Assembly: GCA_937928595.1 (NCBI GenBank)
Contig: CALGJV010000010.1
Coordinates: forward strand, 62,001-126,000
Length of the DNA stretch: 64,000 nt
Reading direction: 5' to 3'
Source: an uncultured Phycisphaerae bacterium
Lineage (GTDB): Bacteria; Planctomycetota; Phycisphaerae; UBA1845; Fen-1342
Part shown: positions 33,172 to 52,299 of the stretch, in pieces
Position numbering within the stretch: position 1 is the first letter of the stretch
Layout: each line of letters opens with the position of its first letter
Translations under genes and position numbers: made by a program
Notes under the pieces: generated by a model
What the model saw: the letters and a program-made list of their open reading frames with translations, nothing else
The model's database searches: none
Told to the model about the DNA's origin: nothing

Positions 33172-35010
33172 TCAGTCGCCCGCGAGCGCCGCCAGCAAGG
33201 CGACGAACGGCTCGATGTCGTCGAAATCCACCGTACCGTCGCCGTTGCAGTCGGCGTTCAGCCAGTCACAGCTCGGGTACCGGACGGCGTAGGCGGCCGG
33301 GCCCAGCAACGCAACGTGGAAGGCCTCCACATCGGTAAATTCGACGCGGCCGTTGCAATCCGTGTCGGCGGGGGCGAGCCCCGCACAGCTGATGCACTGG
33401 CAACCGATATCCGCGTGTACGATGCGCAGGTCGTCGAGGAGAATGTAGCCGTCCTTGGTCACGTCCAGGTCGCGATCGAAGTTGGGCAGCGCGTCGCTGT
33501 CCCCGAGGCGCGTCAGGACCGCGGCGAGGTCGTGACGGGTGGTCGCGCCGTCGCGGTTCACGTCGCCGCGGCAGCCGTTCTCCCAGATCGCGATTTCTAG
33601 CGTCCATCCGGACCGCTGGCCGACCTTGTCCTCGATCGGGTTGCCCGCGAATCCCGCGACAATCTCCGGCAGCGTGTTGCCCAGCAGGTCGCCGAGGGCG
33701 AGGTTTCGGGGGCGTAGGATCTGGTTGTTCGTGATGTTGCGGAACCCGGACGTGTCGACGGGGGTGGGCTGCACCCGCGTCCAACCGGGCGCGGCACTGG
33801 TGCGCAGCGTGATCTCGATCTGGTTGGGGTCGAAGGGGCCGCCGAGCTTCTGTTTGGTCACGAGGTCGGTTCGGCCGTCGCCGTCCATGTCCGCCGCCGC
33901 GACGGCCATGCCGCGATTGACTGCCAGGCCGGCGTACCCGTTCAGTTCCGCGCTGAGCGCGTAGTCGGCCGAGAGGCCGATCGGCGACCAGATCTGCATG
34001 CGCATTCCATGCTGGTCCGCCAGGACGAGGTCCGGAGCCGCCGCCGGCGGGCCGGGCAGCGCGAGCACGTCCGAGCACAGGATCGTGAGCCGCCACTCGC
34101 GTGCCTGGAAGTGGCCCGGCGCGGGCGCGAGTCCACGCCACAGGGCGAGTACGGGGTCGCGCTCCTCGGCGCTGGAGCGGGTTCCGGTGAAGGCGAGATC
34201 GGGACGGCGGTCGCCATCGAAGTCGCCGATCGTCAGCGCGCGCGTCCAGCCTGCAATCAGCGACTCGGCCGGGCTGCCCCATGCAACCCGGAACATAGCG
34301 CTCATGTCGCCGGTTGTCTTCCAGAAGTGCAGGAAATCGCCGTCGACCTGTAGCACCGGGTCCACGATGTACACGAGGTCGTCACGCCCGTCGCCGTCGA
34401 AGTCGGCGGCCAAGGCCCGCGGCGGAGTGATGAAGTTGCCGGTCGAGTTGAAGCCGAAGGGGAAGGCGAGACGCGGGGCGAACTGGAAGCCGCCAAGGTT
34501 CTCGATGAACCAGAGCTCATCACCGTAGAACGCCGCGACCGCCAAATCGAAATCGCCGTCGCCGTCGAAGTTCCCCACCGCGACTTCCCCGGTGCCGTTG
34601 TGGAAGATGGAGCGCGCCGGCACCCCCGCATCGTAGACGAACAGGTCGAGGTCGGCGGCCCGCGCGAAACCGTTGCCCACGTTGGCAAAGATCGTCAGGA
34701 AACGTCGGCCGACGGCGCCGTTCTGGAGGTCCGTCGCGAACCAGGCCACGGCAACGTCAAGCCGGCGGTCACCGTCCAAATCCACCAACTCGACATCCGT
34801 GACCGTCACGACGTCGTATTCGGGCGGCAGGTTCGCGACGGTCAGCCGCAGGGGACTGGTCCGCAAGAGGAGGGGCAATCGCTCGGAGGCGAGAGCTGGC
34901 GCGAGTCCAACAGCGGCCAGGACCCCGGCGGCCGACAGCCACCCCCCAAGGCGAGAGCGCGACGGGCGGCGGAGGCCGAGTGAGTGCAAGCGGGAAGCCG
35001 AAGTGGCCAT
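33172..35010 (-). CDS. secreted FG-GAP/VCBS-repeat protein with dockerin-type tail
   Basis: This 612-residue exoprotein has a basic N-terminus and a signal segment (LSAAGVLAAVGLAPALA). Five or more FG-GAP/VCBS repeats follow, each with a calcium loop (ELVDLDGDRRLDVAVA, AVGNFDGDGDFDLAVA, LAADFDGDGRDDLVYI, TIGDFDGDRRPDLAFT, AAADMDGDGRTDLVTK). These build an integrin-like beta-propeller. The last 150 residues carry dockerin-type loops (GDVNRDGATTRHDLAAVL, DTDCNGRVEFTDVEAF, ADCNGDGTVDFDDIEPFVALL). A role in adhesion or extracellular binding is likely. No good Shine-Dalgarno precedes the ATG, so the start is less certain. The gene is followed closely by the 662-aa exoprotein. Confidence 0.85.
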   Translation of the reverse strand: MATSASRLHSLGLRRPSRSRLGGWLSAAGVLAAVGLAPALASERLPLLLRTSPLRLTVANLPPEYDVVTVTDVELVDLDGDRRLDVAVAWFATDLQNGAVGRRFLTIFANVGNGFARAADLDLFVYDAGVPARSIFHNGTGEVAVGNFDGDGDFDLAVAAFYGDELWFIENLGGFQFAPRLAFPFGFNSTGNFITPPRALAADFDGDGRDDLVYIVDPVLQVDGDFLHFWKTTGDMSAMFRVAWGSPAESLIAGWTRALTIGDFDGDRRPDLAFTGTRSSAEERDPVLALWRGLAPAPGHFQAREWRLTILCSDVLALPGPPAAAPDLVLADQHGMRMQIWSPIGLSADYALSAELNGYAGLAVNRGMAVAAADMDGDGRTDLVTKQKLGGPFDPNQIEITLRTSAAPGWTRVQPTPVDTSGFRNITNNQILRPRNLALGDLLGNTLPEIVAGFAGNPIEDKVGQRSGWTLEIAIWENGCRGDVNRDGATTRHDLAAVLTRLGDSDALPNFDRDLDVTKDGYILLDDLRIVHADIGCQCISCAGLAPADTDCNGRVEFTDVEAFHVALLGPAAYAVRYPSCDWLNADCNGDGTVDFDDIEPFVALLAALAGD

Positions 35011-35057
35011 AAGTGTCGCCGGTCAGGCTCGACACGGGGATTATTCTGGGAACCACA

Positions 35058-35110
35058 TGTCTAGAAAAGAAATGGAGGGGGGACGGGAACCCAAATCCCG
35101 TCCCCCCTCC
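35058..35110 (-). terminator. strong intrinsic terminator after the PEP-CTERM pair
   Basis: A perfect 15-bp stem (arms 35074-35088 and 35096-35110, 7-base loop) is followed on the minus strand by ATTTCTTTTC. It lies 30 bp after the stop of the downstream PEP-CTERM gene. This is the clearest terminator in the window. Confidence 0.9.
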
Positions 35111-35139
35111 GCCGTAGTTAAGGCTGTGGGCGACTTTTA

Positions 35140-35889
35140 CTACCGGCGGCGAGCCAGGAGCAGACCGCACGCGATCAGAGCCAGCGCGGCCGGCTCCGGC
35201 GTGACGAGAATCTGCGTCTGGGCGCTCATGAGATCCTTCGCCGTCAGTGTGAAGTCGTTGCGGAGGCTGATGTCGCTGACCGCCACCGGGATGTCGGCCC
35301 AGGTGCCGATCGCGGGCTCCTTGCCCGTGCCGGTCACCGTGCCGCCGTTGTTGACCGACAGGCCCGCGATCAGGTTCGCGAAGACCGTCGTGCCATTGTA
35401 GTACCCGGTGAAAATGCCGGCGCCGCCGCCGGGGCCTTGCAGGCTCGCGGGCACGCCGTCATTGAAATCCGTCAGCGTGAAGCCCGCGGTCGCCCGTCCG
35501 AGCGACAGGAACGCCGGGATCGTGGCGAAGTCGACCACGGCCGACTTCACGACGAACGTCGCGTCGAGATCGCCGTTGGCGATGTCGAAGTTGACGATCA
35601 CGCGCGGAATGTTCGTGTTGAGGTCGACGACGCGAACATTCGCCATGTTGAGCGTGGCGATGATGTTGGGACCGCTCATCAGCGTGACCGGGCCGCCGAG
35701 CGACCACGTCTGCCCGCCGGTGCCCGGGTCAGGAACCAGCGACGCCGACGTCACCTCATAGAACGTCGAGCCGTTGGCGTTGGACGCCTCGATCCGGAAG
35801 ATCACCGGCGAGACGCCGGCCACTGCCGCCGAAGCGGTTGCCAGCACAAGGCCGGCGAGAAGTACCTGACGCATCCGGTTCATTCGCAT
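35140..35889 (-). CDS. PEP-CTERM surface protein, second of a tandem pair
   Basis: This 249-residue exoprotein has a signal peptide after MRMNRMRQVLLAGLVLATASAAVAG. A beta-rich body (about 30-220; ATLNMANVRVVDLNT, SAVVDFATIPAFLSLGRATAGFTLTDFN) precedes a C-terminal sorting signal TPEPAALALIACGLLLARRR, the PEP-CTERM pattern recognised by exosortase. The neighbour at 35951-36682 has the same layout and shared phrases (ATL, SAL/V..FPAxL, A..GxTLTDF), so the two look like duplicates. GAGAGGATGGAG precedes the ATG; ATGs two and five codons later are alternatives. An exosortase gene is not in the window. The gap to the neighbour is 61 bp and a strong terminator follows, so the pair is one operon. 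Confidence 0.88.
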   Translation of the reverse strand: MRMNRMRQVLLAGLVLATASAAVAGVSPVIFRIEASNANGSTFYEVTSASLVPDPGTGGQTWSLGGPVTLMSGPNIIATLNMANVRVVDLNTNIPRVIVNFDIANGDLDATFVVKSAVVDFATIPAFLSLGRATAGFTLTDFNDGVPASLQGPGGGAGIFTGYYNGTTVFANLIAGLSVNNGGTVTGTGKEPAIGTWADIPVAVSDISLRNDFTLTAKDLMSAQTQILVTPEPAALALIACGLLLARRR

Positions 35890-35950
35890 GGGTCTCCATC
35901 CTCTCCCAAGGGGCGCTCTGCGCCGAACCCTCTCTCCCCACTGTTCTCGC

Positions 35951-36682
35951 TTAGCGGCGCCGCAGCAGCGCGGCCGCGACAATCAGCAGCAGGCTCGCCG
36001 GCTCCGGCACGATCTCGAAGGTCGAGGTGCCCGCCGCGAGGTCATTGGCCGACAGCGTGAAGCTGAACTGCGAGCTCATGCTCGAAACCAAACCCACGAT
36101 GGGCTGGACGCCGGTGTTGATGTTCGCATCAACGATGTCGAACGGGTCGGCCAGCATCTGTGCGATGCCTTCGGTGAACGTCGTGCCGCCCGGGACGAAC
36201 CCATTGTACTGCGCGAGGTACGCGCCGCTCGCCGGCCCGAGGCCGTTCAGCACCGCGCCGGTGCCGTCGAAGTCCGTCAGCGTGATGCCCGCACTGGCCT
36301 GGCCCGTCGGATTGAGCAGCGCCGGGAACGACAGAAGCGCCGACTGAATGGTGAACGTCGTCTGGGCGTTACCCGCCTGAACAGCGAAGCCGAGACTAAT
36401 GACCGGGTCGCTGCGGAACAGAACATCACCTTGCTTGAGGGTCGCGATCACTTCGCGACCCGTGCCGCCGATGATCGCCACCGGCTCGGTGAGCTGCCAC
36501 CGCCACACGTCCCCCTGCCACTGCCCCATGTCCTCGGTCACGTAGAAGTGGCCCGCACCGGCGGCGTTCTGCGCCGTCAGCGCGAACATGTAGCCTTCCG
36601 TGCCCGCGAATGCCGGAACGGTGAGAGCGAGAAGCGCTGCCGCGCCGACGATCAAACTCTTCGAGAGCCCCACAACGCGCAT
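35951..36682 (-). CDS. PEP-CTERM surface protein, first of a tandem pair
   Basis: This 243-residue exoprotein has a signal peptide (MRVVGLSKSLIVGAAALLALTVPAFAG) and a beta-rich body. Its phrases GREVIATLKQGDVLF, SALLSFPALLNPTGQASAGITLTDFDG match the downstream paralogue. The PEP-CTERM tail is VPEPASLLLIVAAALLRRR. GGAGGAG lies seven bases before the ATG, which fixes the start; the frame extends 21 codons upstream without support. A sigma70-like promoter (36766-36794) and a TTTATCGG dyad (36882-36913) lie upstream, so it is the first gene of a two-gene operon. Confidence 0.88.
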   Translation of the reverse strand: MRVVGLSKSLIVGAAALLALTVPAFAGTEGYMFALTAQNAAGAGHFYVTEDMGQWQGDVWRWQLTEPVAIIGGTGREVIATLKQGDVLFRSDPVISLGFAVQAGNAQTTFTIQSALLSFPALLNPTGQASAGITLTDFDGTGAVLNGLGPASGAYLAQYNGFVPGGTTFTEGIAQMLADPFDIVDANINTGVQPIVGLVSSMSSQFSFTLSANDLAAGTSTFEIVPEPASLLLIVAAALLRRR

Positions 36683-36765
36683 TTGGATCTCCTCCTTCCT
36701 CTGCCCTAAGGGCATGGCCGCCTCTACCCCATCGGTCGAGGTCAACCCGTAGTCCTACTTGCCCG

Positions 36766-39659: not shown

Positions 39660-39951
39660 GTCAGGGCTCCGGGCGGCTCGAATCTAGCGGAAGGCGTGAG
39701 GGGCCACAAGAACGACATCCGGCACGTCCCAGTACAACAACGCTGCGGGAAACTGGGCACTGGGGCGACAACGGGGTCCATTGCGGGTGCATCGGCGGGC
39801 GAGGACGGGCCGGTTGGCGTTGTAAGCTGTTGGTGGATTTCGAGTTATGTGGCCGGCGCCGCCGCGCGCAAATCGGGTCGAAACGATACGATATATGGAT
39901 GTCTGGCTGCGGAGGGCTGAAAACCAAGCCGTGTGAAACCCCGGATAGCAT

Positions 39952-39980
39952 TTGACATTCGGCTCCGGTTATGCTACCTT
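39952..39980 (+). promoter_or_regulatory. promoter of rex and the hydrogenase locus
   Basis: TTGACA (39952-39957), a 17-bp spacer and TACCTT (39975-39980). The -35 is perfect and the -10 is weak. The Rex operator starts at the next base, so bound Rex would block transcription. Confidence 0.6.
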
Positions 39981-39998
39981 TCGTGAAGTCGTTCACAA
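39981..39998. promoter_or_regulatory. Rex operator
   Basis: TCGTGAAGTCGTTCACAA differs in one base from the symmetrical Rex consensus TTGTGAAnnnnTTCACAA, and its GTGAA/TTCAC core is perfect. It lies 25 bp before rex and just after the -10. A further TTCACAA half-site is at about 40009-40015. Confidence 0.8.
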
Positions 39999-40022
39999 CG
40001 AAAGCCGATTCACAATGGCAGA

Positions 40023-40748
40023 ATGATGTACAAGGCACAGCTAACCGAGGCGATGATGACCGGCAGCGCGACCAGCTCGTCCGCGGTAGAGCCCGTGCGG
40101 ACCGCGGCCCCAATCGAGATCCCGGTGAGGATGGTGGAACGCTTGAGTGCCTATCGACGGCAGTTGCGGCGATGGGTGGCGGAAGGCCGGACCCGGATCT
40201 ACTCCCACGAACTCGGGGCCCTCGTGGGCGGCACGCCCGCCCAGGTCCGCCGCGACCTGATGACCATCGGATATACGGGCAGCCCGGCCCGCGGATACGA
40301 GGCCACGGGCTTGATTGAGCGCATCAGCCAGCTCCTCGACGCCCCAACGCGTCAGGGGGTCGCGCTGGTGGGCGTGGGCTACCTCGGGCGCGCGATTCTG
40401 AACTACTTCAGCAAGACGCATCCGGATCTGCCGATTCTCGCGGCGTTCGACGTGGCGCCGGAGAAGATCGGCCGGGTGCTCGACGGTTGCCGCTGCTATG
40501 CGATGACCGAACTGGAGGCCGTGCTCGGCACGCAGCCGGTCACGGTCGGCATCGTGGCGGTGCCGGTGGAGGCGGCGCAGGGCGTGGCGGACCGGCTGAT
40601 TCAGGCCGGCGTCCGCGGTCTGCTGAACTTCACGCCGACGCGGCTGCGTGTGCCCCCCGAGGTGTACGTCGAGGACGTGGACATCGCCGTGTCGCTGGAG
40701 AAGGTGGCGTTCTTCGCGCGGCACGGGGCGGGCAGCGACGAGGAGTAG
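40023..40748 (+). CDS. rex: redox-sensing repressor Rex
   Basis: Rex represses anaerobic and NADH-oxidising genes and lets go when NADH/NAD+ rises. The protein is 241 residues. A winged-helix N-domain (about 37-105; ERLSAYRRQLRRWVAEG, TPAQVRRDLMTIGYTGSPARGYE) is followed by a Rossmann domain (GVALVGVGYLGRAILNYF, ILAAFDVAPEKIG). The tail LEKVAFFARHGAGSDEE is the usual swapped helix. It is about 30 residues longer at the N-terminus than normal; starts at 40053 (MMTGS) or 40131 (MVERLS) are alternatives, since the first ATG has no good Shine-Dalgarno. It is the first gene of the hydrogenase locus, so autoregulation and control of hydCBA are likely. Confidence 0.93.
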   Translation: MMYKAQLTEAMMTGSATSSSAVEPVRTAAPIEIPVRMVERLSAYRRQLRRWVAEGRTRIYSHELGALVGGTPAQVRRDLMTIGYTGSPARGYEATGLIERISQLLDAPTRQGVALVGVGYLGRAILNYFSKTHPDLPILAAFDVAPEKIGRVLDGCRCYAMTELEAVLGTQPVTVGIVAVPVEAAQGVADRLIQAGVRGLLNFTPTRLRVPPEVYVEDVDIAVSLEKVAFFARHGAGSDEE

Positions 40749-40752
40749 GACC

Positions 40753-41268
40753 GTGTCACCCGAATCGGTGGGTTGCGCCTGTGCGACCGAGACGCTCCAG
40801 GCGGACGCGGTGCTGGACCGCTTCCCCGAGGCCCGCCGCGAGCACCTGATCCCGATTCTCCAGGCCGTGCAGGACGAGTTCGGCTACCTCTCGCAGGCGA
40901 ACATGCTCGCGATCGGGCGGCGGCTCAACTTGCCGGTCAGCAAGGTCTACGGCGTTGCGACTTTTTACAACCAATTCCGCTTCCAGCCGCGGGGCCGGGT
41001 GCACTGCCAGGTGTGCCGCGGCACCGCCTGCCACGTGAAGGGTTCGGCCACCGTGCTCGAAGCGATTCGCCAGGCGCTCAAGATCGACCCGGGCCAGACC
41101 TCGCGCGACGGGCAGTTCAGCCTCGAGGTGGTGGCGTGCATCGGCGCCTGCGGTTTGGCGCCGGTGGTCACGATGAACGGCGAATTCCACGCGAGCGTGA
41201 CGCCGGACAGCGTCCGCAAGCTCGTGCAGCAGTACGCGAAGGATACGCAGAATGGCAACGGGAAGTAA
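40753..41268 (+). CDS. hydC: HydC, NuoE-like [2Fe-2S] subunit of NADH-linked [FeFe] hydrogenase
   Basis: This 171-residue thioredoxin-fold ferredoxin passes electrons between HydB and HydA. Cluster ligands are visible as CRGTAC (C-x4-C) and CIGACGLAP (C-x3-C), with the helical N-domain LDRFPEARREHLIPILQAVQDEFGYLS before them. The GTG start is preceded by GAGGAG seven bases away; the gap to rex is 4 bp. It overlaps hydB by 17 bp. Together with HydB and HydA this makes the trimer of the bifurcating hydrogenase type, but whether bifurcation takes place cannot be read from sequence. Confidence 0.92.
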   Translation: MSPESVGCACATETLQADAVLDRFPEARREHLIPILQAVQDEFGYLSQANMLAIGRRLNLPVSKVYGVATFYNQFRFQPRGRVHCQVCRGTACHVKGSATVLEAIRQALKIDPGQTSRDGQFSLEVVACIGACGLAPVVTMNGEFHASVTPDSVRKLVQQYAKDTQNGNGK

Positions 41269-43255
41269 CGGAAACGCGGCCGGCGGACCGTGCGCTTGTG
41301 CGCGATGCGCCAACCCGCTGCTGACGGCCGAGGATCGGGCGGCGCTGCTCGGCCCGGCTCCGGCGGACACGCCGGAGACGCAGGCCCAGCGGGAGATTCG
41401 GCTGGCGCTGCTGCGGCGCGACCGCGTCGAGCGTCCGGCGATCTTCGTCGGGGCTGGCACGTGCGGCCTGGGCGCGGGCGCCGGCAAGACACTGGCGGCC
41501 GTGCGGCAGTACCTGGCCGAGCGGCAGATCGCGGCCGACGTGGTCGAAGTCGGCTGCATCGGGATGTGCTCGGCCGAGCCGCTGGTCGACGTGCAGTTGC
41601 CCGGCCGCACGCGGGTGTGTTTCCGGGCGATCACGGCCGACAAGGTGCCGGGGCTGCTCGAGTCGGCGTTGGCCGGGCAGATTCCGGCGGCGCACGTGCT
41701 GGGGCAGTTCCGAGGGGTGCAGCTCCAGTCGTGGCTGGACGTGCCGTACCTGGATGAGCACCCGTTCTTCAGCCCGCAGACGCGCTGGGTGCTGGCGAAC
41801 TGCGGGCTGATCGATCCGAACAGCCTGGAGGAATACCTGGCGCGCGGCGGGTACCGGGGCTTGGCGCAGGTTCTGCGCAACATGACGCGGGCCGAGCTGT
41901 GCGACCTGGTCGAGCGGAGCGGGCTGCGGGGGCGCGGCGGCGGCGGTTTTCCGACGGGGAGGAAGTGGAAGATCGCGTTGAACTCGCCGGGCGACCAGAA
42001 GTACCTGATCTGCAACGCCGACGAGGGGGACCCCGGCGCGTTCATGGACCGGGCCGTGATCGAAGGGGACCCGCACCGGCTGGTGGAGGGCATGGCGGTC
42101 GCCGCGTACGCGATCGGCGCGAGCAAGGCCTACGTCTACATCCGGGCGGAGTACCCGCTGGCGATCAAGCATCTCGAACACGCCATCCGTCAGGCGCACG
42201 CGGCCGGCCTGCTGGGCGAAAACATTTTGGGCAGCGGTTTCGACCTGCACATCACGCTCAAGCAGGGCGCCGGGGCGTTCGTGTGCGGCGAGGAAACGGC
42301 CCTGATCAACAGCATCGAGGGGCGGCGCGGCATGCCGCGGCCGCGCCCGCCGTTCCCGGCGGTGTCGGGGGCGTTCGGCAAGCCGACCGTAATCAACAAC
42401 GTGGAGACGCTGGCGAACCTGCCGACGCTGCTGGAGCTGGGGGCGGAGTCGTTCGCGGCGGTGGGCACGGCCGGCAGCAAGGGCACGAAGGTGTTCGCGC
42501 TGTCGGGCAAGGTGGCCCGGACGGGGCTGATCGAAGTGGCGATGGGCACGACCGTGCGGCGGATCGTGTTCGACATCGGCGGGGGGATCCCGGACGGCAA
42601 GGCTTTCAAGGCGGTGCAGATCGGCGGGCCGTCGGGCGGGTGCATTCCGACGGCGCACCTGGACATCGAGATCGACTACGACTCGCTCAAGACCGTGGGC
42701 GCGATGATGGGGTCGGGCGGCCTCGTCGTGATGGACGAGGACAACTGCATGGTGGACGTCGCGAAGTTCTTCATGGACTTCATCCAGCGCGAGAGCTGCG
42801 GGAAGTGCATTCCCTGCCGCGAAGGCACGCGCCACATGCTGGAGATCCTCCAGGCGATCACGCGCTCGCGCCGGAACGAGAGCGGCTACAAGGCCCTGGA
42901 GCGTTTCAAGGGCGTGATGTACCTGAACCGGCTCGCGGAGGTCATCCGCGACACGAGCCTGTGCGGCCTGGGCCAGTCGGCCCCGAACCCGGTGCTCAGC
43001 ACGCTGCGCTGGTTCCGCGAGGAGTACGAGGCGCACGTGTTCGAGCGCAAGTGCCCGGCGGGCGCGTGCAGCGAGCTGCTGTCGTACCGGATCGACGCCG
43101 ACAAGTGCCACGGCTGCACGCTGTGCGCGTTGAAGTGCCCGACCGAGGCGATCATGGGGGCGAAGCGGGCCCCGCACTACATCGTGCCGGAGAAGTGCAT
43201 CGCCTGCGGCACGTGCGTCAGCCTGTGCCGGTTCGAGGCCATCGTCGCGGAATGA
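41252..43255 (+). CDS. hydB: HydB, NuoF-like NADH/FMN subunit of [FeFe] hydrogenase
   Basis: This 667-residue flavoprotein of HydB/NuoF type begins with a thioredoxin-like [2Fe-2S] domain (AIFVGAGTCGLGAG, EVGCIGMCSAEPLV). The FMN/NADH fold follows: GRGGGGFPTGRKW (about 226) and NADEGDPGAFMDR. A [4Fe-4S] site SCGKCIPCREG (about 515) comes next. The C-terminus carries two ferredoxin clusters (CHGCTLCALKCP about 619 and CIACGTCVSLC). The extra C-terminal ferredoxin is typical of HydB and absent from NuoF. It oxidises or reduces NAD(H) and exchanges electrons with HydC and HydA. The start overlaps hydC. A candidate ATG elsewhere is not needed. Confidence 0.95.
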   Translation: MATGSNGNAAGGPCACARCANPLLTAEDRAALLGPAPADTPETQAQREIRLALLRRDRVERPAIFVGAGTCGLGAGAGKTLAAVRQYLAERQIAADVVEVGCIGMCSAEPLVDVQLPGRTRVCFRAITADKVPGLLESALAGQIPAAHVLGQFRGVQLQSWLDVPYLDEHPFFSPQTRWVLANCGLIDPNSLEEYLARGGYRGLAQVLRNMTRAELCDLVERSGLRGRGGGGFPTGRKWKIALNSPGDQKYLICNADEGDPGAFMDRAVIEGDPHRLVEGMAVAAYAIGASKAYVYIRAEYPLAIKHLEHAIRQAHAAGLLGENILGSGFDLHITLKQGAGAFVCGEETALINSIEGRRGMPRPRPPFPAVSGAFGKPTVINNVETLANLPTLLELGAESFAAVGTAGSKGTKVFALSGKVARTGLIEVAMGTTVRRIVFDIGGGIPDGKAFKAVQIGGPSGGCIPTAHLDIEIDYDSLKTVGAMMGSGGLVVMDEDNCMVDVAKFFMDFIQRESCGKCIPCREGTRHMLEILQAITRSRRNESGYKALERFKGVMYLNRLAEVIRDTSLCGLGQSAPNPVLSTLRWFREEYEAHVFERKCPAGACSELLSYRIDADKCHGCTLCALKCPTEAIMGAKRAPHYIVPEKCIACGTCVSLCRFEAIVAE

Positions 43256-43304
43256 TGCGTCGCGCCCGCCCCGTCGCGGTCGGGCGCCGGGAGTCAAACG
43301 CCCC

Positions 43305-45026
43305 ATGCAGATCGAAGTGAACAACCGGATGATCGAGGCCCGGCCGGGCGAGATGCTTCTGACCGCGCTGCGACGGGCGCACGTGAACGTGCCGACGCTG
43401 TGCAACCTCGAACACCTGACGCCGACCGGCGCGTGCCGGTTGTGCGTGGTCGAGGTCGAGGGGCAGCGGAACCTCGTGCCGAGCTGCGCGTTTCCCGTGC
43501 AGGAGGGCATGAAGGTCCGCACGCACTCGCCGCGGGCGGTCGGCGCCCGCAAGACCATCGTCGAGCTGCTGCTCGCCAACCACCCGGACGACTGCCTCTA
43601 CTGCGTGCGGAACAACAACTGCACCTTGCAGTCGCTGGCGGCCGAGCTCGGCGTGCGCGAGCGGCGCTTCCGCGCCGAGCGCAGCAACACCTACCACGCC
43701 GACACGTCCAGCGCGTCGATCGTGCGCGACCCGTCCAAGTGCATCCTGTGCGGCAAGTGCGTGCGCGTCTGCGAGGAGGTTCAGGGCGTCGCAGCCATCG
43801 ACTTCATCCACCGCGGCAGCCGCACGCACGTCGGCACGGCCTTCGACCAGGGCCTGAACGTCTCGAGCTGCATCAATTGCGGCCAGTGCATCATGGTCTG
43901 CCCGACGTCCGCGCTGCGCGAGCAGAGCGCCATCAAGGAGGTCCTCGACGCCCTCCGCAACCCCGACCGCTTCGTGGTCGTGCAGCACGCGCCGGCCGTG
44001 TCGGTCACGCTGGCCGAGGAGTTCGGCCTGCGCCCCGGGGCCGACGTGGACGGCTGCCTGACGGCCGCGCTGCGGCGGCTCGGGTTCCGGCGCGTGTTCG
44101 ACACGTCGTTCTCGGCCGACCTGACGATCATGGAGGAGGCGTCGGAGCTGGTGCGCCGCCTCCGCACGGGCGGCCGGCTGCCGATGTTGACGAGCTGCTC
44201 GCCCGGGTGGATCAAGTACGTGGAGGAGTTCCATCCGGACTTCGTGCCGAACCTGTCGACCTGCAAGAGCCCGCAGCAGATGCTGGGGGCGCTGATCAAA
44301 TCGTTCTTCGCGCAGCGCGAGGGCCTCGACCCGGCGAAGATCTACTCCGTGGCGATCATGCCCTGCACCGCCAAGAAGTTCGAGGCCGGGCGGCCCGAGC
44401 TCGGCCGCGACGGGCGGCCGGACGTCGACGCCGTCCTGACGACGCGCGAGCTGGCCCGCATCTTCCGCCTGCGCGGCATCGACCCGACGCGGGTCGTGCC
44501 GGAATCGGCCGACCACCCGTTCGGCGAGCGCACGACGGCCGGCAAGTTGTTCGGCGCGACCGGCGGCGTGATGGAGGCGGCGCTGCGCACCGCGCACCAC
44601 CTGCTGACCGGACGCGAACTCGAGGAGCTCAAGGTCAAGCCGGTGCGCGGCCTCGAGGGCGTCAAGGAAGCCCGCGTGCGGATCAACGGCGTGGAGCTGG
44701 GCGTCGCGGTCGCCAGCGGCCTGGCGAACGCCGGCCGGCTGCTCGGCGAGGTCCGCGCCGGCCGGGCGGACCTGCAATTCATCGAGGTGATGACGTGTCC
44801 GGGCGGCTGCATCGCGGGCGGCGGGCAGCCGCTGGGAGCGGACCGGGACGCGGTCCGGGCCCGGATGCGGGCGCTGTACCAGATCGACCGGGACGAGCCC
44901 GTGCGCGTGTCGCACCGCAACGAGGCGGTCCGCCGCCTGTACGACGAGTTCCTCGACGAGCCGCTCAGCGAAGCCAGCCACCGCCTCCTTCACACGCACT
45001 ACCACGCCCGCGAGGTGATCCGCTAG
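43305..45026 (+). CDS. hydA: HydA, catalytic subunit of NADH-linked [FeFe] hydrogenase
   Basis: This 573-residue hydrogenase has an N-terminal [2Fe-2S] domain (CNLEHLTPTGACRLC...SC) and a His/Cys [4Fe-4S] site (HPDDCLYCVRNNNC). Two ferredoxin clusters (CILCGKCVRVC, CINCGQCIMVC) precede the H-domain. H-cluster motifs are L1 TSCSPGW (about 296-302), L2 MPCTAKKFEA (about 352-361) and L3 EVMTCPGGCIAGGGQP (about 502-517). L1 has Ser299 where most enzymes have the proton-relay cysteine of TSCCP. The ending LLHTHYHAREVIR resembles other NADH-linked hydrogenases. It needs HydE, HydF and HydG for its active site; hydE and hydG are downstream. It follows hydB by 49 bp. Confidence 0.95.
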   Translation: MQIEVNNRMIEARPGEMLLTALRRAHVNVPTLCNLEHLTPTGACRLCVVEVEGQRNLVPSCAFPVQEGMKVRTHSPRAVGARKTIVELLLANHPDDCLYCVRNNNCTLQSLAAELGVRERRFRAERSNTYHADTSSASIVRDPSKCILCGKCVRVCEEVQGVAAIDFIHRGSRTHVGTAFDQGLNVSSCINCGQCIMVCPTSALREQSAIKEVLDALRNPDRFVVVQHAPAVSVTLAEEFGLRPGADVDGCLTAALRRLGFRRVFDTSFSADLTIMEEASELVRRLRTGGRLPMLTSCSPGWIKYVEEFHPDFVPNLSTCKSPQQMLGALIKSFFAQREGLDPAKIYSVAIMPCTAKKFEAGRPELGRDGRPDVDAVLTTRELARIFRLRGIDPTRVVPESADHPFGERTTAGKLFGATGGVMEAALRTAHHLLTGRELEELKVKPVRGLEGVKEARVRINGVELGVAVASGLANAGRLLGEVRAGRADLQFIEVMTCPGGCIAGGGQPLGADRDAVRARMRALYQIDRDEPVRVSHRNEAVRRLYDEFLDEPLSEASHRLLHTHYHAREVIR

Positions 45027-45101
45027 GGGTCACCGGGCGGCGGGTGCGTATGGGGCGTCGGAGGTTTCCGATAGGATAGGCGACGGGCGGGCCGGTCCCC
45101 G

Positions 45102-45119
45102 GGGCCGGCGCGCCGGCCC
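45102..45119. terminator. GC palindrome between hydA and the sensor kinase
   Basis: GGGCCGGCGCGCCGGCCC is an 18-bp perfect palindrome in the 138-bp gap after hydA. It may attenuate or end the structural transcript. A TAGGAT -10-like hexamer just upstream could start a separate one. Confidence 0.35.
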
Positions 45120-45164
45120 TCCGGGGCAGGAGCGGCGTCCGGCGCGACCGGGCGCCGGGAGCAC

Positions 45165-47180
45165 ATGGACCCGCAAAGCGCACCACTGGTTTCGACGATC
45201 CGCGAGCGCTGCCGGCTGTGCTACACCTGCGTGCGGGAGTGCCCGTCGAAGGCGATCCGGATCGCCGGCGGGCAGGCCGAGGTGCTGGCGGACCGCTGCA
45301 TCGGGTGCGGGAATTGCGTGCGCGTGTGCAGCCAGGCGGCCAAGCGCGTGCGGTCCGAGGTCGAGCCGGTCGAGGCGCTGCTGGCGTCGGGGGCGCGGGT
45401 CGCGGCGCTGGTGGCGCCGAGTTTCCCGGCCGAATTCACCGAGATCGAGTACGAGTACCTGGTGGGGATGATCCGCGATCTGGGCTTCGAGCGCGTCTGC
45501 GAGGTCGGCTTCGGGGCGGACCTGGTGGCGGCGGAATACCAGCGGCTGCTGGCGACGCAGCCCGGGCGATTCATCGCGACGACGTGCCCGGCGATCGTGG
45601 GCTACGTGGAGCGCTATCATCCGGACCTGGTGCTGGCGCTGGCGCCGATCGTTTCGCCGATGGTGGCGTCGGCGCGGGCGCTGCGGCGGCTGTACGGCGA
45701 CGACCTGCGGATGGTCTTCATCGGGCCGTGCATCGCCAAGAAGGGCGAGGCCGGAAGCGAGCGGATCGAAGGGGAAGTCGACGCGGCCCTGACGTTCGGC
45801 GAGCTGCGCGAGATGCTCGGGCGGCGGGCGCTGAAGGCCGAGTCGGTCGCGCCCAGCGACTTCGACCCGCCGCACGCCGGCAGCGGGGCGCTGTTCCCGC
45901 TCAGCCGCGGCATGCTCCAGGCCGCCCAGCTGCCCGAAGACCTGCTGTCCGGCGAGGTGGTGGCGGCGGACGGGCGGAGCGAGTTCGTCGAGGCCATTCG
46001 CGAGTTCGAGACCGGCGACATCCACGCCCGCCTGCTCGAGGTCCTGTGCTGCAACGGGTGCATCATGGGGCCGGGTTGCACGAGCCGGGCGCCGCTCTTC
46101 AGCCGACGGGCGCAGGTCAGCCGGTACGCCAAGCGGCGGATGGCCGACGGCGACCGCGAGCGCTGGCACGAGTACTGGGCGCGCCTGGCGGACCTGGACC
46201 TGCGGCGGACATTCAGGGCGTACGACCGGCGGATCCTGGCGCCGTCGGAGGCGGAGGTTCGTGACATGCTGGCGCGGCTGGGTAAGTTCCTGCCGGCCGA
46301 CGAGCTGAACTGCGGCGCGTGCGGCTACGAGACCTGCCGCGAGCACGCCAGCGCGATCCTGCGCGGGCTGGCCGAGGGCGAGATGTGCCTGCCGTACACG
46401 ATCGAGCAGCTCCGCACGACGTGCCGCGACCTGGCGGTGTCGAACGAGCAGCTCGCCAGCGCGCAGGAAGCGCTGATGCAGTCGGAGAAGCTGGCGAGCA
46501 TGGGCCAGCTCGCCGCGGGCATCGCCCACGAGGTCAACAACCCGCTCGGCACGGTGCTCATGCTGGCCCATACGCTGCTGGAGGAGACGCCGACCGAGCA
46601 CCCGGCCCGCGAGGACCTGGCACTGATCGCCAGCGAGGCCGACCGCTGCAAGCGCATTGTGTCCGGCCTGCTCCAGTTCGCCCGCAAGAACAAGGTCGAG
46701 ACGCGTTCGACGAACGTGCCCGGACTGGTCGAGCGGACGGTGCGAATGCTCCGCATCCCGCCGGGCGTGACCGTGCGGTACGAGCACACCGACGAGGACC
46801 TGAAAGCGGAGATCGACCGCGACCAGGTCGCGCAGGTCGTGACGAACCTGGTCAACAACGCGGTGGACGCGATGCCGGGCGGCGGGACGCTGACGGTGCG
46901 GACGGCGGCCGACGGGCCGCGCGTGCGGATCGAGGTAACCGACAGCGGCATCGGGATTCCACCGGAGAACCTCAAGAAGATCTTCGAGCCGTTCTTCACG
47001 ACGAAGAGCGCCGGCAAGGGCACCGGGCTCGGGCTGTCCGTGACGTACGGCATCGTGAAGATGCACCAGGGGGACATCCGCGTGGTGTCGAACGCGGACC
47101 CGGCCGGCGGGCCGACCGGCACGACGTTCACCGTGACCCTGCCCCGCGAGCGCGCGAAGCCGAGCGCGGCGGCGGGCTAG
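45165..47180 (+). CDS. histidine kinase with hydrogenase-like H-cluster sensor domain
   Basis: This 671-residue fusion starts with two ferredoxin clusters (CRLCYTCVRECP, CIGCGNCVRVC). A domain related to [FeFe]-hydrogenase large subunit follows: L1-like TTCPAIV (about 139), L2-like GPCIAKK (about 187) and L3-like CCNGCIMGPG (about 295). A four-cysteine FeS motif CGACGYETCREHA (about 383) leads to a short coiled linker. HisKA has the phospho-acceptor in AAGIAHEVNNP (about 453), and HATPase_c has NLVNNAVDAMP and FEPFFTTKSAGKGTGLGLS. L1 lacks one cysteine, so it is probably a sensor rather than a catalyst. It is likely to signal to the receivers encoded next and resembles the sensory classes of [FeFe] hydrogenases. 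Confidence 0.85.
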   Translation: MDPQSAPLVSTIRERCRLCYTCVRECPSKAIRIAGGQAEVLADRCIGCGNCVRVCSQAAKRVRSEVEPVEALLASGARVAALVAPSFPAEFTEIEYEYLVGMIRDLGFERVCEVGFGADLVAAEYQRLLATQPGRFIATTCPAIVGYVERYHPDLVLALAPIVSPMVASARALRRLYGDDLRMVFIGPCIAKKGEAGSERIEGEVDAALTFGELREMLGRRALKAESVAPSDFDPPHAGSGALFPLSRGMLQAAQLPEDLLSGEVVAADGRSEFVEAIREFETGDIHARLLEVLCCNGCIMGPGCTSRAPLFSRRAQVSRYAKRRMADGDRERWHEYWARLADLDLRRTFRAYDRRILAPSEAEVRDMLARLGKFLPADELNCGACGYETCREHASAILRGLAEGEMCLPYTIEQLRTTCRDLAVSNEQLASAQEALMQSEKLASMGQLAAGIAHEVNNPLGTVLMLAHTLLEETPTEHPAREDLALIASEADRCKRIVSGLLQFARKNKVETRSTNVPGLVERTVRMLRIPPGVTVRYEHTDEDLKAEIDRDQVAQVVTNLVNNAVDAMPGGGTLTVRTAADGPRVRIEVTDSGIGIPPENLKKIFEPFFTTKSAGKGTGLGLSVTYGIVKMHQGDIRVVSNADPAGGPTGTTFTVTLPRERAKPSAAAG

Positions 47181-47205
47181 ACGGCGGCGAGGGCGAGCAG
47201 GCGGT

Positions 47206-47598
47206 ATGGCGGCGGATATACTGATTGTCGACGATGACGTGGACTTCCTGACCGTGCTGCGCGTGCAGCTCGAGTCCCGCGGATACCACGTGCGGACGGC
47301 CGAGAGCGCCCGCGCCGCCCGCGAACTGCTGCGGGCGCAGCGACCGGATCTCGTGGTGGCGGACCTGATGATGGAGGAGCCGGACGCCGGCTTCAGCCTG
47401 TGCCATCAGATCAAGCGGCAGGACCCGACCATTCCGGTGCTGCTGTTGACGGGAGTGACGGCCGAGACCGGCCTGCGGTTCGACGCGGAGACCCGGGAAG
47501 AACGGGCCTGGATCCAGGCCGACGGCGTGCTGGCCAAGCCCGTTCGCCCCGAGCAGCTCGAAGCCGAGCTGCACCGGCTGCTTCCGAACGGACCCTGA
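47206..47598 (+). CDS. stand-alone receiver (CheY-like) protein
   Basis: A 130-residue receiver with no output domain: acidic pocket DDD (10-12), phospho-acceptor D53 in VVADLMM, and LLTGV and LAKP (conserved Thr and Lys) later. With 25 bp before it and 1 bp after, it is co-transcribed with the two kinases, so it probably relays phosphate between them or to an unlinked regulator. No DNA-binding part is present. Confidence 0.9.
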   Translation: MAADILIVDDDVDFLTVLRVQLESRGYHVRTAESARAARELLRAQRPDLVVADLMMEEPDAGFSLCHQIKRQDPTIPVLLLTGVTAETGLRFDAETREERAWIQADGVLAKPVRPEQLEAELHRLLPNGP

Positions 47599-47599
47599 G

Positions 47600-48781
47600 A
47601 TGGAAACCCTGCGCGTACTCGTGGTCGACGACGAGGCCGGCATGCGGCACGCGGTCGTCCGCGCGCTGCGGGGTTACCGGCTGCATCTGCCGGATGTGGA
47701 GGGCGAGGTCGGCTTCGAGCTGGAGCAGGCCGCCAGCGGCGAGGAGGCGCTCGAGCTGCTGGCCGCCCGTCCGCCCGACATCATGCTGCTCGACCACAAG
47801 ATGGGCGGGATGAGCGGCATCGAGGTGCTCGAGCAGGTCGTGAAGCGCGAGCTGGACGTGCTCACGATCATGATCACGGCGTTCGCGACGCTCGAGACGG
47901 CCGTGCACGCGACCAAGTCCGGCGCGTTCGACTTCCTGGCCAAGCCGTTCACGCCGGACGAGCTCAAGGAGACGATCCGCAAGGCCGCCGGGCACCTCCT
48001 GACGCTGCGGCAGGCCCGCAAGCTGGCGGCCGAGAAGCGCCGCGTGCGCTTCGAGTTCATCTCGGTGCTCGGGCACGAGCTCAAGGCGCCGCTGGCCGCG
48101 ATCGAGGGCTACCTGAACATCATCCGCGACCGGGCGCTGGGGATGGACGTGGCCGCCTACGAGCCGGCCGTGCAGCGCTGCCTGATCCGGGCCGAGGGCA
48201 TGCGCAAGCTGATCATGGACCTGCTGGACCTGACGCGGATCGAGTCGGGCCAGAAGCGGCGCGAGCTGGCCCCGGTCGATTTCCGCGAGGTGGCCGCGGC
48301 GGCGCTGGAGACGGTGCGGCCCGCGGCGGCCGAACGCAACATCACGCTGGGGCTGGAACCGGGCGAGCCGCAGGTTCTCACGGCCGACCGGGGCGAGCTC
48401 GAGATCATCCTGAACAACCTGCTGACGAACGCCGTGAAGTACAACCGCCCGGGCGGGCGCGTGACCGTGCGGCTGACCGGCGACGCGGACCGGGTGGTGC
48501 TGGCCGTGACGGACACGGGGATCGGGCTGACGCCGGAGGAGGCCGCCAAGCTGTTCAACGACTTCGTGCGGATTCGCAACGACAAGACGCGCGACATCAC
48601 CGGCAGCGGACTGGGTCTGTCGGTGGTCCGGAAGCTCGCGTTGCTGTACGGGGGCGACGCGACCGTGACCAGCACGCCGGACGTCGGCAGCACGTTCACG
48701 GTGACGCTGCGGCGGAACGCGAAGCCGCCCGTGGTGGACGATGGAAAGAGCCGAACTGTACCGCTGGCTGCGGGAAACTGA
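47600..48781 (+). CDS. receiver-histidine kinase hybrid (REC first)
   Basis: This 393-residue cytoplasmic protein has an N-terminal receiver (acidic DDE at 10-12, D65 in MLLDHKM, K105 in FLAKPF). A HisKA domain follows (FISVLGHELKAPLAAIEGYL, phospho-acceptor about residue 157), then HATPase_c (NNLLTNAVKYN, VTDTGIGL, GSGLGLSVV). It has no sensor domain of its own, and the receiver probably takes its signal from the H-cluster kinase or the stand-alone receiver. The 3' end overlaps hydE by 41 bp. There is no DNA-binding domain. Confidence 0.9.
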   Translation: METLRVLVVDDEAGMRHAVVRALRGYRLHLPDVEGEVGFELEQAASGEEALELLAARPPDIMLLDHKMGGMSGIEVLEQVVKRELDVLTIMITAFATLETAVHATKSGAFDFLAKPFTPDELKETIRKAAGHLLTLRQARKLAAEKRRVRFEFISVLGHELKAPLAAIEGYLNIIRDRALGMDVAAYEPAVQRCLIRAEGMRKLIMDLLDLTRIESGQKRRELAPVDFREVAAAALETVRPAAAERNITLGLEPGEPQVLTADRGELEIILNNLLTNAVKYNRPGGRVTVRLTGDADRVVLAVTDTGIGLTPEEAAKLFNDFVRIRNDKTRDITGSGLGLSVVRKLALLYGGDATVTSTPDVGSTFTVTLRRNAKPPVVDDGKSRTVPLAAGN

Positions 48782-49802
48782 CGAGACGCGGCTGGCCGAG
48801 CTCTGGGAGCGGGCGGACGCCGTGCGGCGCGCGCACGTGGGCGACGCCGTGCACCTGCGCGGGCTGATCGAGATCTCCAACAACTGCGTGCGGCGCTGCG
48901 CGTACTGCGGGCTGCGGGCGCCCAACGTGAAGCTCGGCCGCTACCGGATGACGACCGAGCAGATCCTGGGGTGCGTGCGGCAGGCCGCGGCGCTGGGTTA
49001 CGGCACGGTCGTGCTTCAGGCCGGCGAGGATCCGCTCCTGACGACCGAGTGGGTGGCGGCCCTGGTCAAGCGCATCCGCGTCGAGACGCCGCTGGCGATT
49101 ACGCTGAGCCTCGGGGAGGTGGACGAGGGTGCGCTGCGGGCCTGGAAAGCCGCCGGCGCCGACCGCTACCTGCTCCGGTTCGAGACGTCCAACCGGGCGC
49201 TCTACGACCGGCTGCACCCGCCGCGGGCGGGGCGGGTGTCGGATCGGCTGGCGCTGCTGCGGCGGCTGCGCGAACTGGGGTTCGAGGTGGGCAGCGGCGT
49301 GATGGTCGGCCTGCCGGGGCAGACGTACGACGACCTCGTGTCGGACCTCGAGCTGTTCCGGGCGCTGGACCTCGACATGATCGGGCTGGGGCCGTACATC
49401 CCGCACCCGGAGACGCCGCTGTGCGGCGAAGCCGCGCGGGCGGGCGGGCCGGAGCAGGTCCCCAATGACGAGCGGACGACGTACAAGATGATCGCGCTGG
49501 CCCGGCTGGTGTGTCCGCGGGCCAACATCCCGAGCACGACCGCGCTGGCGACGCTGAACCGCGCGCAGGGCCGCGAGCTCGGCCTCCAGCGCGGCGCGAA
49601 CGTCGTGATGCCGAACCTGACGCCGGTCGAGCTGCGGGCGCAGTACGAGATCTACCCGGGCAAGGCCTGCGTCAACGAGACCGCGGAAGCGTGCAGCGGC
49701 TGCCTGGTGGCGCGCATCACGCGCATCGGGCGCACCGTCGGCACCGGCCGCGGCGATTCGCCGAACTGGACGGCCCGGGTCGGGCCGACCGGCCCGGCCT
49801 GA
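48741..49802 (+). CDS. hydE: HydE, radical SAM maturase of [FeFe] hydrogenase
   Basis: This 353-residue radical-SAM enzyme helps build the H-cluster's diiron part. The cluster motif CVRRCAYC gives Cys49, Cys53 and Cys56 (C-x3-C-x2-C). The SAM site and barrel are visible in VLQAGEDPLL and LGLGPYIPHPETPL, and the C-terminal MPNLTPVELRAQYEIYPGKACVNE is typical of HydE. The ATG lies inside the previous kinase gene (41-bp overlap), but the family N-terminus (ELYRWL) begins there. The stop is 8 bp before hydG. Confidence 0.93.
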   Translation: MERAELYRWLRETDETRLAELWERADAVRRAHVGDAVHLRGLIEISNNCVRRCAYCGLRAPNVKLGRYRMTTEQILGCVRQAAALGYGTVVLQAGEDPLLTTEWVAALVKRIRVETPLAITLSLGEVDEGALRAWKAAGADRYLLRFETSNRALYDRLHPPRAGRVSDRLALLRRLRELGFEVGSGVMVGLPGQTYDDLVSDLELFRALDLDMIGLGPYIPHPETPLCGEAARAGGPEQVPNDERTTYKMIALARLVCPRANIPSTTALATLNRAQGRELGLQRGANVVMPNLTPVELRAQYEIYPGKACVNETAEACSGCLVARITRIGRTVGTGRGDSPNWTARVGPTGPA

Positions 49803-49810
49803 GGACGAAG

Positions 49811-51235
49811 ATGCCGCGTTTGCCGGACCTGGCCCTGAGCGACGGGGCCGTGGACTTCATCGACGAGGACCGCTTCGCGGCGCTGCTGGCGGCGCCCCGG
49901 CCGGACGCCGCCCGCGTACGGGACGTGATCGCGCGCAGCCTGGCCAAGCAACCGCTGACGGTGGAAGAGACCGCCGTGCTGCTGGGAGCGGACACGCCGG
50001 ACCTCCAGCAGGAGCTGTTCGCGGCGGCCCGCACGCTCAAAGAGACCGTGTACGGCAACCGCATCGTGCTGTTCGCACCGCTGTACATCGGCAATGACTG
50101 CGTGAACGAGTGCCTGTACTGTGCGTTCCGGCACTCGAACGCGGACGAGGTGCGGCGGACGCTGGACGCGGCGGAGATCCGCCGGCAGGTCGAGGCGCTC
50201 GAGCAGCGTGGCCACAAGCGGCTGATTCTCGTGTTCGGCGAGCATCCGCGCTACGACGCGGACTTCATCCACGACTGCGTGCGGCTGGTGTACGGCGTGC
50301 GCGTCGGGCCGGGGGCGATCCGCCGGGTGAACATCAACGCCGCGCCGCAGGACATCGCCGGCTACCGCCGGATCAAGGCCGCCGGCATCGGCACGTTCCA
50401 GGTCTTCCAGGAGACGTACCACCACGCGACCTACGCGGCCATGCACCCGCGGCACACGCGGAAGGGCGACTACCTGTACCGGCTCGACGCGTTGAGCCGC
50501 GCGCAGGAGGCCGGCATCGACGACGTCGGCATCGGCGCGCTGTTCGGGCTGTACGACTGGCGTTTCGAGGTGCTCGCGCTGGTGGCGCACGCGCGGCACC
50601 TCCAGGAGCGCTACGGCGTCGGGCCGCACACGATCAGTTTTCCGCGCGTCCGCCCGGCGCTGGGGGTGGCGCTGGACGAGCGCTGGAAGGTGAGCGACGC
50701 GGACTTCAGGCGGCTGGTGGCGATCCTGCGGCTGGCGGTGCCGTACACCGGGCTGATCCTGACGGCCCGCGAGCCGGCGGAGCTGCGGCGCGAGCTGCTG
50801 GGGTTCGGCGTGTCGCAGATCGACGCGGGCACGCGGATCGAGCTGGGCGGCTATACCGAAGCCGGCGACGCCCAGTGCATGGAGCGCGAGCAATTCGAGC
50901 TCGGCGACATCCGCTCGCTCGACGCGGTGCTGGGCGAGCTCGTGACGGACGGCTACCTGCCGAGCTTCTGCACGGCCTGCTACCGCCTCGGCCGCACGGG
51001 CGAGCACTTCATGGAGTTCGCGATTCCGGGCTTCATCAAGCGCTTCTGCACGCCGAACGCGCTGCTGACGGCCGCCGAGTACCTGCGGGACTACGCCAGC
51101 CCCGAGACGCGGGCCGCGGGCGAGCGGCTGATCGCGGCCGAGCTGGAGCGCATCGAGGAGGGACCGCTGAAGGCGGAGCTGCTCGACCGGCTGCGACAGA
51201 TCCGCGAGACCGACCGGCGGGACCTGTACTTCTAG
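49811..51235 (+). CDS. hydG: HydG, tyrosine-lyase radical SAM maturase
   Basis: This 474-residue radical-SAM enzyme cuts tyrosine to make CO and cyanide for the H-cluster. The N-terminal cluster motif CVNECLYC gives Cys97, Cys101 and Cys104. The second cluster is C387-x2-C390-x22-C413 (CTAC...RFC), which marks HydG over the related thiamine enzyme ThiH. Other landmarks are VFGEHPRYD, VFQETYHHATYAAMHP and GIGALFGLYDW. GAGGACGAAG precedes the ATG; a longer frame overlaps hydE. HydF, the scaffold GTPase, is not next to it. Confidence 0.93.
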   Translation: MPRLPDLALSDGAVDFIDEDRFAALLAAPRPDAARVRDVIARSLAKQPLTVEETAVLLGADTPDLQQELFAAARTLKETVYGNRIVLFAPLYIGNDCVNECLYCAFRHSNADEVRRTLDAAEIRRQVEALEQRGHKRLILVFGEHPRYDADFIHDCVRLVYGVRVGPGAIRRVNINAAPQDIAGYRRIKAAGIGTFQVFQETYHHATYAAMHPRHTRKGDYLYRLDALSRAQEAGIDDVGIGALFGLYDWRFEVLALVAHARHLQERYGVGPHTISFPRVRPALGVALDERWKVSDADFRRLVAILRLAVPYTGLILTAREPAELRRELLGFGVSQIDAGTRIELGGYTEAGDAQCMEREQFELGDIRSLDAVLGELVTDGYLPSFCTACYRLGRTGEHFMEFAIPGFIKRFCTPNALLTAAEYLRDYASPETRAAGERLIAAELERIEEGPLKAELLDRLRQIRETDRRDLYF

Positions 51236-51266
51236 GCGGGCGGAATCCGTCCGCGGAGGCGCGGCG

Positions 51267-52253
51267 ATGCAGACCACGACTCTCGGCCCACGCGGCCCGC
51301 GCGTGTCGCTGATCGGCTTTGGCGCCTGGGCCATCGGCGGCCGGAACTGGGGCCCGACCGACGACGACGTTTCCCGTGCGGCGCTGCACGCCGCCCTCGA
51401 CGCCGGTGTCACGCTCATCGACACCGCGGACGTCTACGGGTGCGGCCACTCCGAGACGCTCATCGCCGAGGTGCTGCGGGTCCGCGGCGGCGAGGCGGCC
51501 CGGCAGCGGGCCGGAATCCTGGTCGCCAGCAAGGCCGGCAACGACTTCTACCACGCCGCCGCCGCGGACGACCGCGGCTACGACCCCATCCGGCAGAACT
51601 ACGACCGTGACTATCTCATCTCGGCCGCCGAGCGCAGCCTCCGGCGGCTCGGCGTCGACGCCCTGGACATCCTGCAGTTGCACAGCGGCGACCGGGCGCA
51701 GCTCGAACGCGACGACCCGTGGGACGCGCTGGCGACGCTCAAGCGTCAGGGCAAGATTCGGTGGGCGGGCTGGAGCGTGCAGTCGTTCCAGGAGACCGCG
51801 CAGGCCGATTTGCTCGACGCCCGTCACGGCGTGCTCGACTGTCTCTAGGTGCGCTACAACCTGCTCGAGCGCGACGCCGAGCGGGAACTGCTGCCGCGGG
51901 CCCGACGCTACGGGCTCGGTGTAATCGTGCGGATTCCGCTGCTGTTCGGACTGCTGACGGGCAAGTTCACGCCCGCCAGCACGTTCGGACCCGACGACCA
52001 CCGCCGGATGAACCTCGCCCCGGAGAAGCTCGCGGAATACCTCCCGCGGCTGGCGGCGCTGCAACCGCTGTTCGAGCGCTACCCGCATCAGACCCGCACG
52101 CAGGTCGCGCTGCGGTTCTGCACCTCGCACCCCGCCTGCCACACCACGATCCCGGGCGCCAAGACGCCCGCGCAGGTCGCGGAAAACGCGGCCGCCGGCG
52201 ACCTCGGGCCGCTGACGGATGACGATCTCGCGCTGGTCGCACGGGTGGCGTAG
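51267..52253 (+). pseudogene. aldo/keto reductase interrupted by an in-frame amber codon
   Basis: A 329-codon aldo/keto reductase frame is split by TAG at 51846-51848 (codon 194). The text reads HGVLDCL-stop-VRYNLLER, where relatives have Gln (DVVQVxYNLL), so CAG to TAG explains it. The first half keeps the family tetrad: Asp and Tyr in DTADVYGCGHSE, Lys in VASKAG and His in LQLHSGD. The second half has the NADP part (RIPLLFGLLTGKF, TQVALRFCTSHPACHTTIPGAKTPAQVAEN). GTG right after the stop could reinitiate to make two fragments. It could be a real pseudogene, a sequencing error or readthrough. It follows hydG by 31 bp, on the same strand. Confidence 0.85.
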
Positions 52254-52299
52254 CGGACGGCCCCCCGAATCGCGCGGGTCGGGCGGAAATGCCGTCGGC

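Follow-up and report, generated by a model that had tools for sequence, protein, structure and literature searches.

The window analyzed here, by which we mean the whole stretch of 64,000 nucleotides from an uncultured Phycisphaerae bacterium, carries on its plus strand a rex gene followed by a set of [FeFe] hydrogenase genes, with the following features.

39952..39957, plus strand: -35 hexamer TTGACA (sequence, and placement in relatives)
39972..39980, plus strand: extended -10, TGC-TACCTT (TG at 39972-39973, hexamer at 39975-39980, 17-bp spacer)
39981..39998, plus strand: predicted Rex operator, copy 1, TCGTGAAGTCGTTCACAA (one mismatch to TTGTGAANNNNTTCACAA; conserved in relatives)
39999..40014, plus strand: predicted Rex operator, copy 2, worn, CGAAAGCCGATTCACA (8/10 core bases at exactly +17)
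40023..40748, plus strand (start may be 40053): rex, of a hydrogenase-linked Rex clade (NCBIfam, Pfam, PDB, tree)
40753..41268, plus strand: nuoE-like [2Fe-2S] subunit (PF01257; GTG start chosen, the open reading frame list beginning at 40648)
41252..43255, plus strand: hydB, NuoF-like, FMN/NADH subunit (PF01512, PF10589)
43305..45026, plus strand: hydA, NADH-dependent [FeFe] hydrogenase, group A6 (NCBIfam NF040763, 817.7 bits, cut-off 765)
45165..47180, plus strand: hydS-like, [FeFe] hydrogenase domain fused to a histidine kinase (PF02906, PF00512, PF02518)
47206..47598, plus strand: stand-alone receiver domain (PF00072)
47600..48781, plus strand: receiver-histidine kinase hybrid (PF00072, PF00512, PF02518)
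48741..49802, plus strand: hydE maturase (TIGR03956, 336.6 bits, cut-off 254.6)
49799..51235, plus strand (start approximate): hydG maturase (TIGR03955, 476.1 bits, cut-off 312.15)

The order and spacing of rex and the hydrogenase genes fit a single operon, and the genes may be cotranscribed: a gap of 4 bp separates rex from nuoE if the GTG at 40753 is the start of the latter, and a search of 39900-52300 for plus-strand terminator-like sites gave none. Since Pfam shows no DNA-binding output domain in the sensor kinase and receivers (45165-48781), no DNA-binding regulator other than Rex is seen in the putative operon. An aldehyde dehydrogenase gene on the other strand has its start at 39659 and is directed away from rex. 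Farther upstream, the minus-strand genes at 33172-36745 encode apparent secreted proteins with dockerin-like and PEP-CTERM-like ends, as judged by eye from the translations.

Promoter and probable Rex operator in front of rex

A preliminary description of this DNA had placed an 18-bp site with a single departure from the Rex consensus immediately after the -10 element. Both points hold: the site at 39981-39998 differs by one base from TTGTGAANNNNTTCACAA, the consensus as printed in PMC6391272 and PMC8376106, and the hexamer TACCTT ends at 39980, with the site beginning at 39981. The same description had let rex start 25 bp after the site; the first ATG, at 40023, leaves 24 bases behind operator copy 1, and other starts are possible, e.g., the one at 40053 with CGAGGCG in front. 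A three-codon frame, ATG GCA GAA TGA, lies at 40015-40026: it starts on the base that closes the right half of copy 2, overlaps the ATG at 40023, the first of rex, and could be a tiny leader frame or a chance occurrence.

The -10 hexamer is poor (3/6), and a generic promoter scan did not pick it up; the promoter hexamers are supported because relatives place them likewise. In 13 of the 20 related loci, a hexamer matching TTGACA in at least 5 of 6 bases precedes the operator core by 28 to 32 nt (30 nt in the window); among the 24 paired sites that make up the base table described below, it is present in 9, the scan there covering only 29 nt of upstream DNA. By eye, copy 1 in many relatives runs into the -10 or lies right against it, much as in the window, an arrangement that fits repression through blocking of the polymerase. 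With TTGACA-N17-TACCTT directly before 39981-39998, transcription would be expected to start inside the operator.

How rare is such a site? Within the window, two matches to TTGTGAANNNNTTCACAA with at most three mismatches compare with a mean of 0.24 in 100 shuffles, 2 of which also reach two matches, and the core YGTGAN6TCACA is complete (10/10) once, at operator copy 1. The genome-wide scan that the preliminary description had proposed as a check returned 23 places with at most three mismatches in 3,694,415 bases, versus 5 for the reversed pattern. Only two of the 23 have fewer than three mismatches: the operator at 39981-39998 and a match (C10:61077) that we dropped as a second Rex target because it sits within the kdsA reading frame. 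At this threshold of two mismatches, the genome thus showed no further candidate besides the rex operator and the kdsA match. The three-mismatch places (21, one of them at 40396-40413 of the window) exceed the reversed-pattern total of 5. Thirteen of these 21 were inspected, and each lies in a stop-free frame of at least 261 codons, one of them inside rex, which suggests that the inspected places are coding DNA. A one-mismatch match in a 3.7-Mb genome is thus not remarkable alone, and the relatives are the test. The case for the operator rests on its position and its conservation.

The site and its 17-bp partner in related bacteria

A Rex protein search of 150 relatives gave matches in 101, from which 40 rex loci were fetched. 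Twenty-two of these loci (L074 to L095) belong to the Rex clade of the window, their Rex proteins being 43 to 67% identical to the window's. In 16 of the 22, nuoE and hydB stand behind rex, followed mostly, where the contig reaches, by hydA, the sensor hydrogenase kinase, receivers, hydE, and hydG in the order of the window. In two others the sensor kinase comes directly behind rex, and four (L081, L082, L091, and L095, the last of which ends inside rex) have no such gene in the locus DNA. A site with at most three mismatches precedes rex in 20 of the 21 related loci having upstream DNA (L091 has none and was left out); the one miss is L081. The 17 paralogous rex loci, which encode a second Rex type about 36 to 43% identical, contain no site with fewer than four mismatches. 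L111 encodes a third Rex type beside hydrogenase genes and has two three-mismatch sites.

Clade, site, and hydrogenase are not invariably found in combination. The genome behind L081 (G123) encodes a same-clade Rex but has no site in the approximately 330 bp available upstream of it, nor hydrogenase-set genes nearby; G132 (L082) has two paired arrays before rex, yet no hydrogenase-set genes nearby. Elsewhere in G123 (L145), what appears by eye to be a receiver-domain gene is closely preceded by a perfect TTGTGAANNNNTTCACAG site.

The preliminary description had recognized a single Rex operator on the rex promoter. That reading is supported by the conservation of the site at related rex genes, but what appears to be a second copy, 17 bp downstream, had been missed. 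The spacing emerged from an offset test, in which the core YGTGAN6TCACA was scored from -90 to +90 around the best site of each locus, offsets within 7 being excluded. The 20 loci of this test had been found by protein and not by motif (L091, L081, and L111 were left out). Offset +17 alone stands out, with a mean of 6.9/10 versus 2.7 overall (z 7.6; the next offset reaches z 2.4). A partner scoring at least 8/10 is present at +17 in 12 of the 20 loci and, with scores of 8 or 9, at -17 in two further ones; L089, L090, and L094 have no partner 17 bp to either side. One genome, G024, has an array of four Rex-like palindromes, head to tail with a 17-bp period, in front of rex (L132, 1500-1567).

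The pair was also recovered without reference to rex. When 397 genomes of the class were scanned blind for the paired pattern, with one mismatch allowed, 25 genomes matched, versus none for the reversed pattern. Merged over strands, the matches correspond to 27 places: 25 before rex (in 24 genomes, G132 having two), one before hydE-hydG (G103), and one before hydB (G174). For two of the 25 rex places (L120 and L121), the tblastn alignment extends into the site with its low-identity N-terminal end. The genome of the window was not matched, its own pair having three mismatches to the pattern. Among 199 genomes across the phylum (13 of the same class, the window's included), the pair was not found, and in the 25 genomes behind named records (2 Planctomycetota and 23 from other phyla) it occurred once, with no hydrogenase-set gene in the 3 kb covered. 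For 24 of the 27 paired places (G128, the second G132 array, and G103:C150 were left out), we tabulated the bases: 18 of these 24 have G at the joint of the paired sites, where the window has A.

For a view of the wider regulon, the single pattern TTGTGAANNNNTTCACAG was run with one mismatch against 34 chosen genomes, giving 70 strand-wise matches versus 7 for the reversed pattern. Twenty-three such places besides the known rex promoters were inspected; among the places listed, nine adjoin hydrogenase-set genes (two further rex copies, one divergent neighbor of a rex operon, and six other nuoE-hydB clusters) and the remaining 14 showed no hydrogenase-set gene alongside. Both a rex operon and, divergent from it, a second nuoE-hydB-hydA cluster carry a Rex-like site in G146 (L177, 1094 and 1857).

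These comparisons bear on the nature of the window's second copy. Its right half, TTCACAA (40009-40015), is intact, and its left half is worn, with CGAAA in place of YGTGA. It is possible, although to our minds doubtful, that the window has an ordinary single Rex operator and that the sequence at +17 is there by chance. The worn left half would fit this, as would the loci L089, L090, and L094, which are unpaired at 17 bp, and such a reading is compatible with self-repression, rivaling only the paired arrangement. Against it, 8 of 10 core bases match at an offset fixed beforehand by the relatives, a core score of at least 8/10 having a frequency of 3.1e-4 in the window, and the right half is perfect. 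We take 39999-40014 as a putative worn second operator copy.

The Rex clade and other readings of the palindrome

The window protein is a Rex by NCBIfam NF003995 (198.5 bits, cut-off 126), with the winged-helix N-domain (PF06971) and the Rossmann NAD(H)-binding domain (PF02629). Its relatives in the PDB comprise eight distinct sequences, seven named Rex and one named "AT-rich DNA-binding protein." A tree of 76 Rex sequences places the 34 of the window type in one group on a long stem with 100/100 support, in a bootstrap that had not fully settled. The 18 second-type sequences form another group, inside which the named Planctomycetota locus L049 falls among genomes of the window's class, in line with a planctomycete origin of the window.

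The two types also differ in motif, the window's clade having mostly VRRDxM...GSPxxGY and the second type mostly RKDLAYFG...GHPGxGY. In Streptococcus agalactiae Rex, Arg50 and Arg51 read two operator guanines (PMC8376106), and by count from Tyr66 the RR of VRRDL in the window Rex occupies the place of these two residues. By the pattern used, 32 of the 34 clade members and none of the 18 second-type proteins have arginine at the second of these operator-reading positions. The S. agalactiae wing residue Arg62 falls on a proline in the window Rex; we dropped this proline as a clade-specific trait because it is present in 31 of 34 clade members and 16 of 18 paralogues alike. On the cofactor side, the NAD contacts Ala94 and Tyr98 of Thermus aquaticus Rex (PMC8063818) align with Ala and Tyr in the window Rex (1xcb alignment).

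Might the palindrome belong to another regulator? A site for a protein of the CRP/FNR family (CRP or HcpR type) deserves mention because TGTGA-N6-TCACA is also the consensus of these proteins, Desulfovibrio HcpR having been assigned wTGTGAnnnnnnTCACAw (PMC1274295), but we consider it quite improbable. The window's genome does encode one CRP-family protein above the family cut-off. Aligned by eye with the CRP recognition helix, this protein has a serine (TSETLSR) at the place of CRP Arg180. Replacement of Arg180 by Ser or Pro is reported to accompany a motif without G at position 3 (PMC1274295). Moreover, a site behind the -10 fits a repressor rather than an activator, and every one of the 27 blind-scan places has the pair in front of rex or hydrogenase genes. 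Least credible of all, to the point of being negligible, is an RNA hairpin in the leader: CTTTCG (39978-39983) and CGAAAG (39999-40004) lengthen the dyad imperfectly, but the folds of 39981-40060 and 39975-40060 are no better than shuffles (z +1.19 and +0.46) and do not form the hairpin, Rfam gave no match, and relatives retain the palindromes and not the CTTTCG/CGAAAG extension (by eye). A riboswitch was rejected on the same grounds of no Rfam family and an RNA fold that is not unusual.

Proposed switch and comparison with known systems

The reading that we favor, and hold to be very probable from sequence comparison, is that Rex represses its own operon from 39981-39998 and that NADH relieves this repression. 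The preliminary description had likewise proposed that Rex controls itself along with the hydrogenase genes, and site conservation, Rex family, and gene order support a link of this kind. In such a switch, an NAD+-loaded Rex dimer would sit on the palindrome at 39981-39998, over the expected transcription start, and block RNA polymerase. A rise in NADH would release Rex, so that rex, the [FeFe] hydrogenase, the H2-sensor-like kinase, and the maturases would be made together, and H2 production would then reoxidize NADH (with ferredoxin), closing the loop. Most relatives would accommodate two Rex dimers side by side, 17 bp apart, while the genome of the window may have kept a strong first copy and let the second weaken. 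Going one step further, it is tempting to speculate that the two dimers at 17 bp bind cooperatively.

More tentatively, and as a proposal that we regard as finely poised without quite tipping in its favor, a separate and largely hydrogenase-dedicated Rex branch may have coevolved with its own operator, in which palindromes abut head to tail at 17 bp and neighboring dimers would bind cooperatively. If this were true, the 17 bp, corresponding to 1.6 helical turns, would set neighboring dimers on almost opposite sides of the helix and could yield a steep NADH switch. The change in the recognition helix, RRDxM for the RKDLAYFG of the same bacteria's paralogues, may accompany the paired operator. 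The paired, quadruple, and half-worn arrays form a natural series that would be suited to relating the spacing of Rex dimers to the sharpness of an NADH switch. More broadly, the comparison locates the most likely point of control of H2 metabolism by a redox sensor in this bacterial group, for which we met no accounts of Rex in the literature searched, among the matches listed.

Several elements of this picture are already known, namely, Rex autoregulation, Rex control of [FeFe] hydrogenase and hydG, and the presence of two Rex sites in a promoter. The likenesses and differences that follow are those of the passages compared. In Caldithrix abyssi (Cabys_3675-3679), rex likewise comes first in an [FeFe] hydrogenase operon, a candidate Rex site lies 38 bp before rex, and repression at low NADH/NAD+ has been proposed (PMC5317091); one site is described there, in contrast to the 17-bp pairs of the window's relatives, and C. 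abyssi Rex is not among the 76 sequences of the tree. Caldicellulosiruptor bescii Rex resembles the proposed system in its control of [FeFe] hydrogenase genes, hydG, and rex itself, backed by gel shifts, and in the consensus TTGTGAANNNNTTCACAA (PMC6391272). It differs in that several operons and a wide regulon are involved, whereas the window's genome has no other noncoding site with at most two mismatches. In the hnd operon of Solidesulfovibrio fructosivorans, a Rex site is likewise predicted at the promoter of a bifurcating [FeFe] hydrogenase, and HydS has also been suggested as a regulator (PMC10084766); the passages compared mention neither a rex gene within the operon nor paired sites.

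More than one Rex site per promoter has been reported for Staphylococcus aureus ldh1 (PMC3544828) and S. agalactiae adhE (PMC8376106), and two adjacent Rex half-sites for Streptomyces avermitilis aveR (PMC5355995). These three cases share with the window's relatives the presence of two sites or half-sites, but an abutting array with a fixed 17-bp period is not described for them in the passages compared. Nor did we meet, among the matches listed in the literature searched, a description of tandem or paired Rex operators at a fixed 17 bp tied to one clade, a statement that concerns this literature and makes no claim of absence from print. What seems new here, as judged from the sequences compared, is thus the evenly spaced 17-bp pair of putative Rex sites common to related bacteria.
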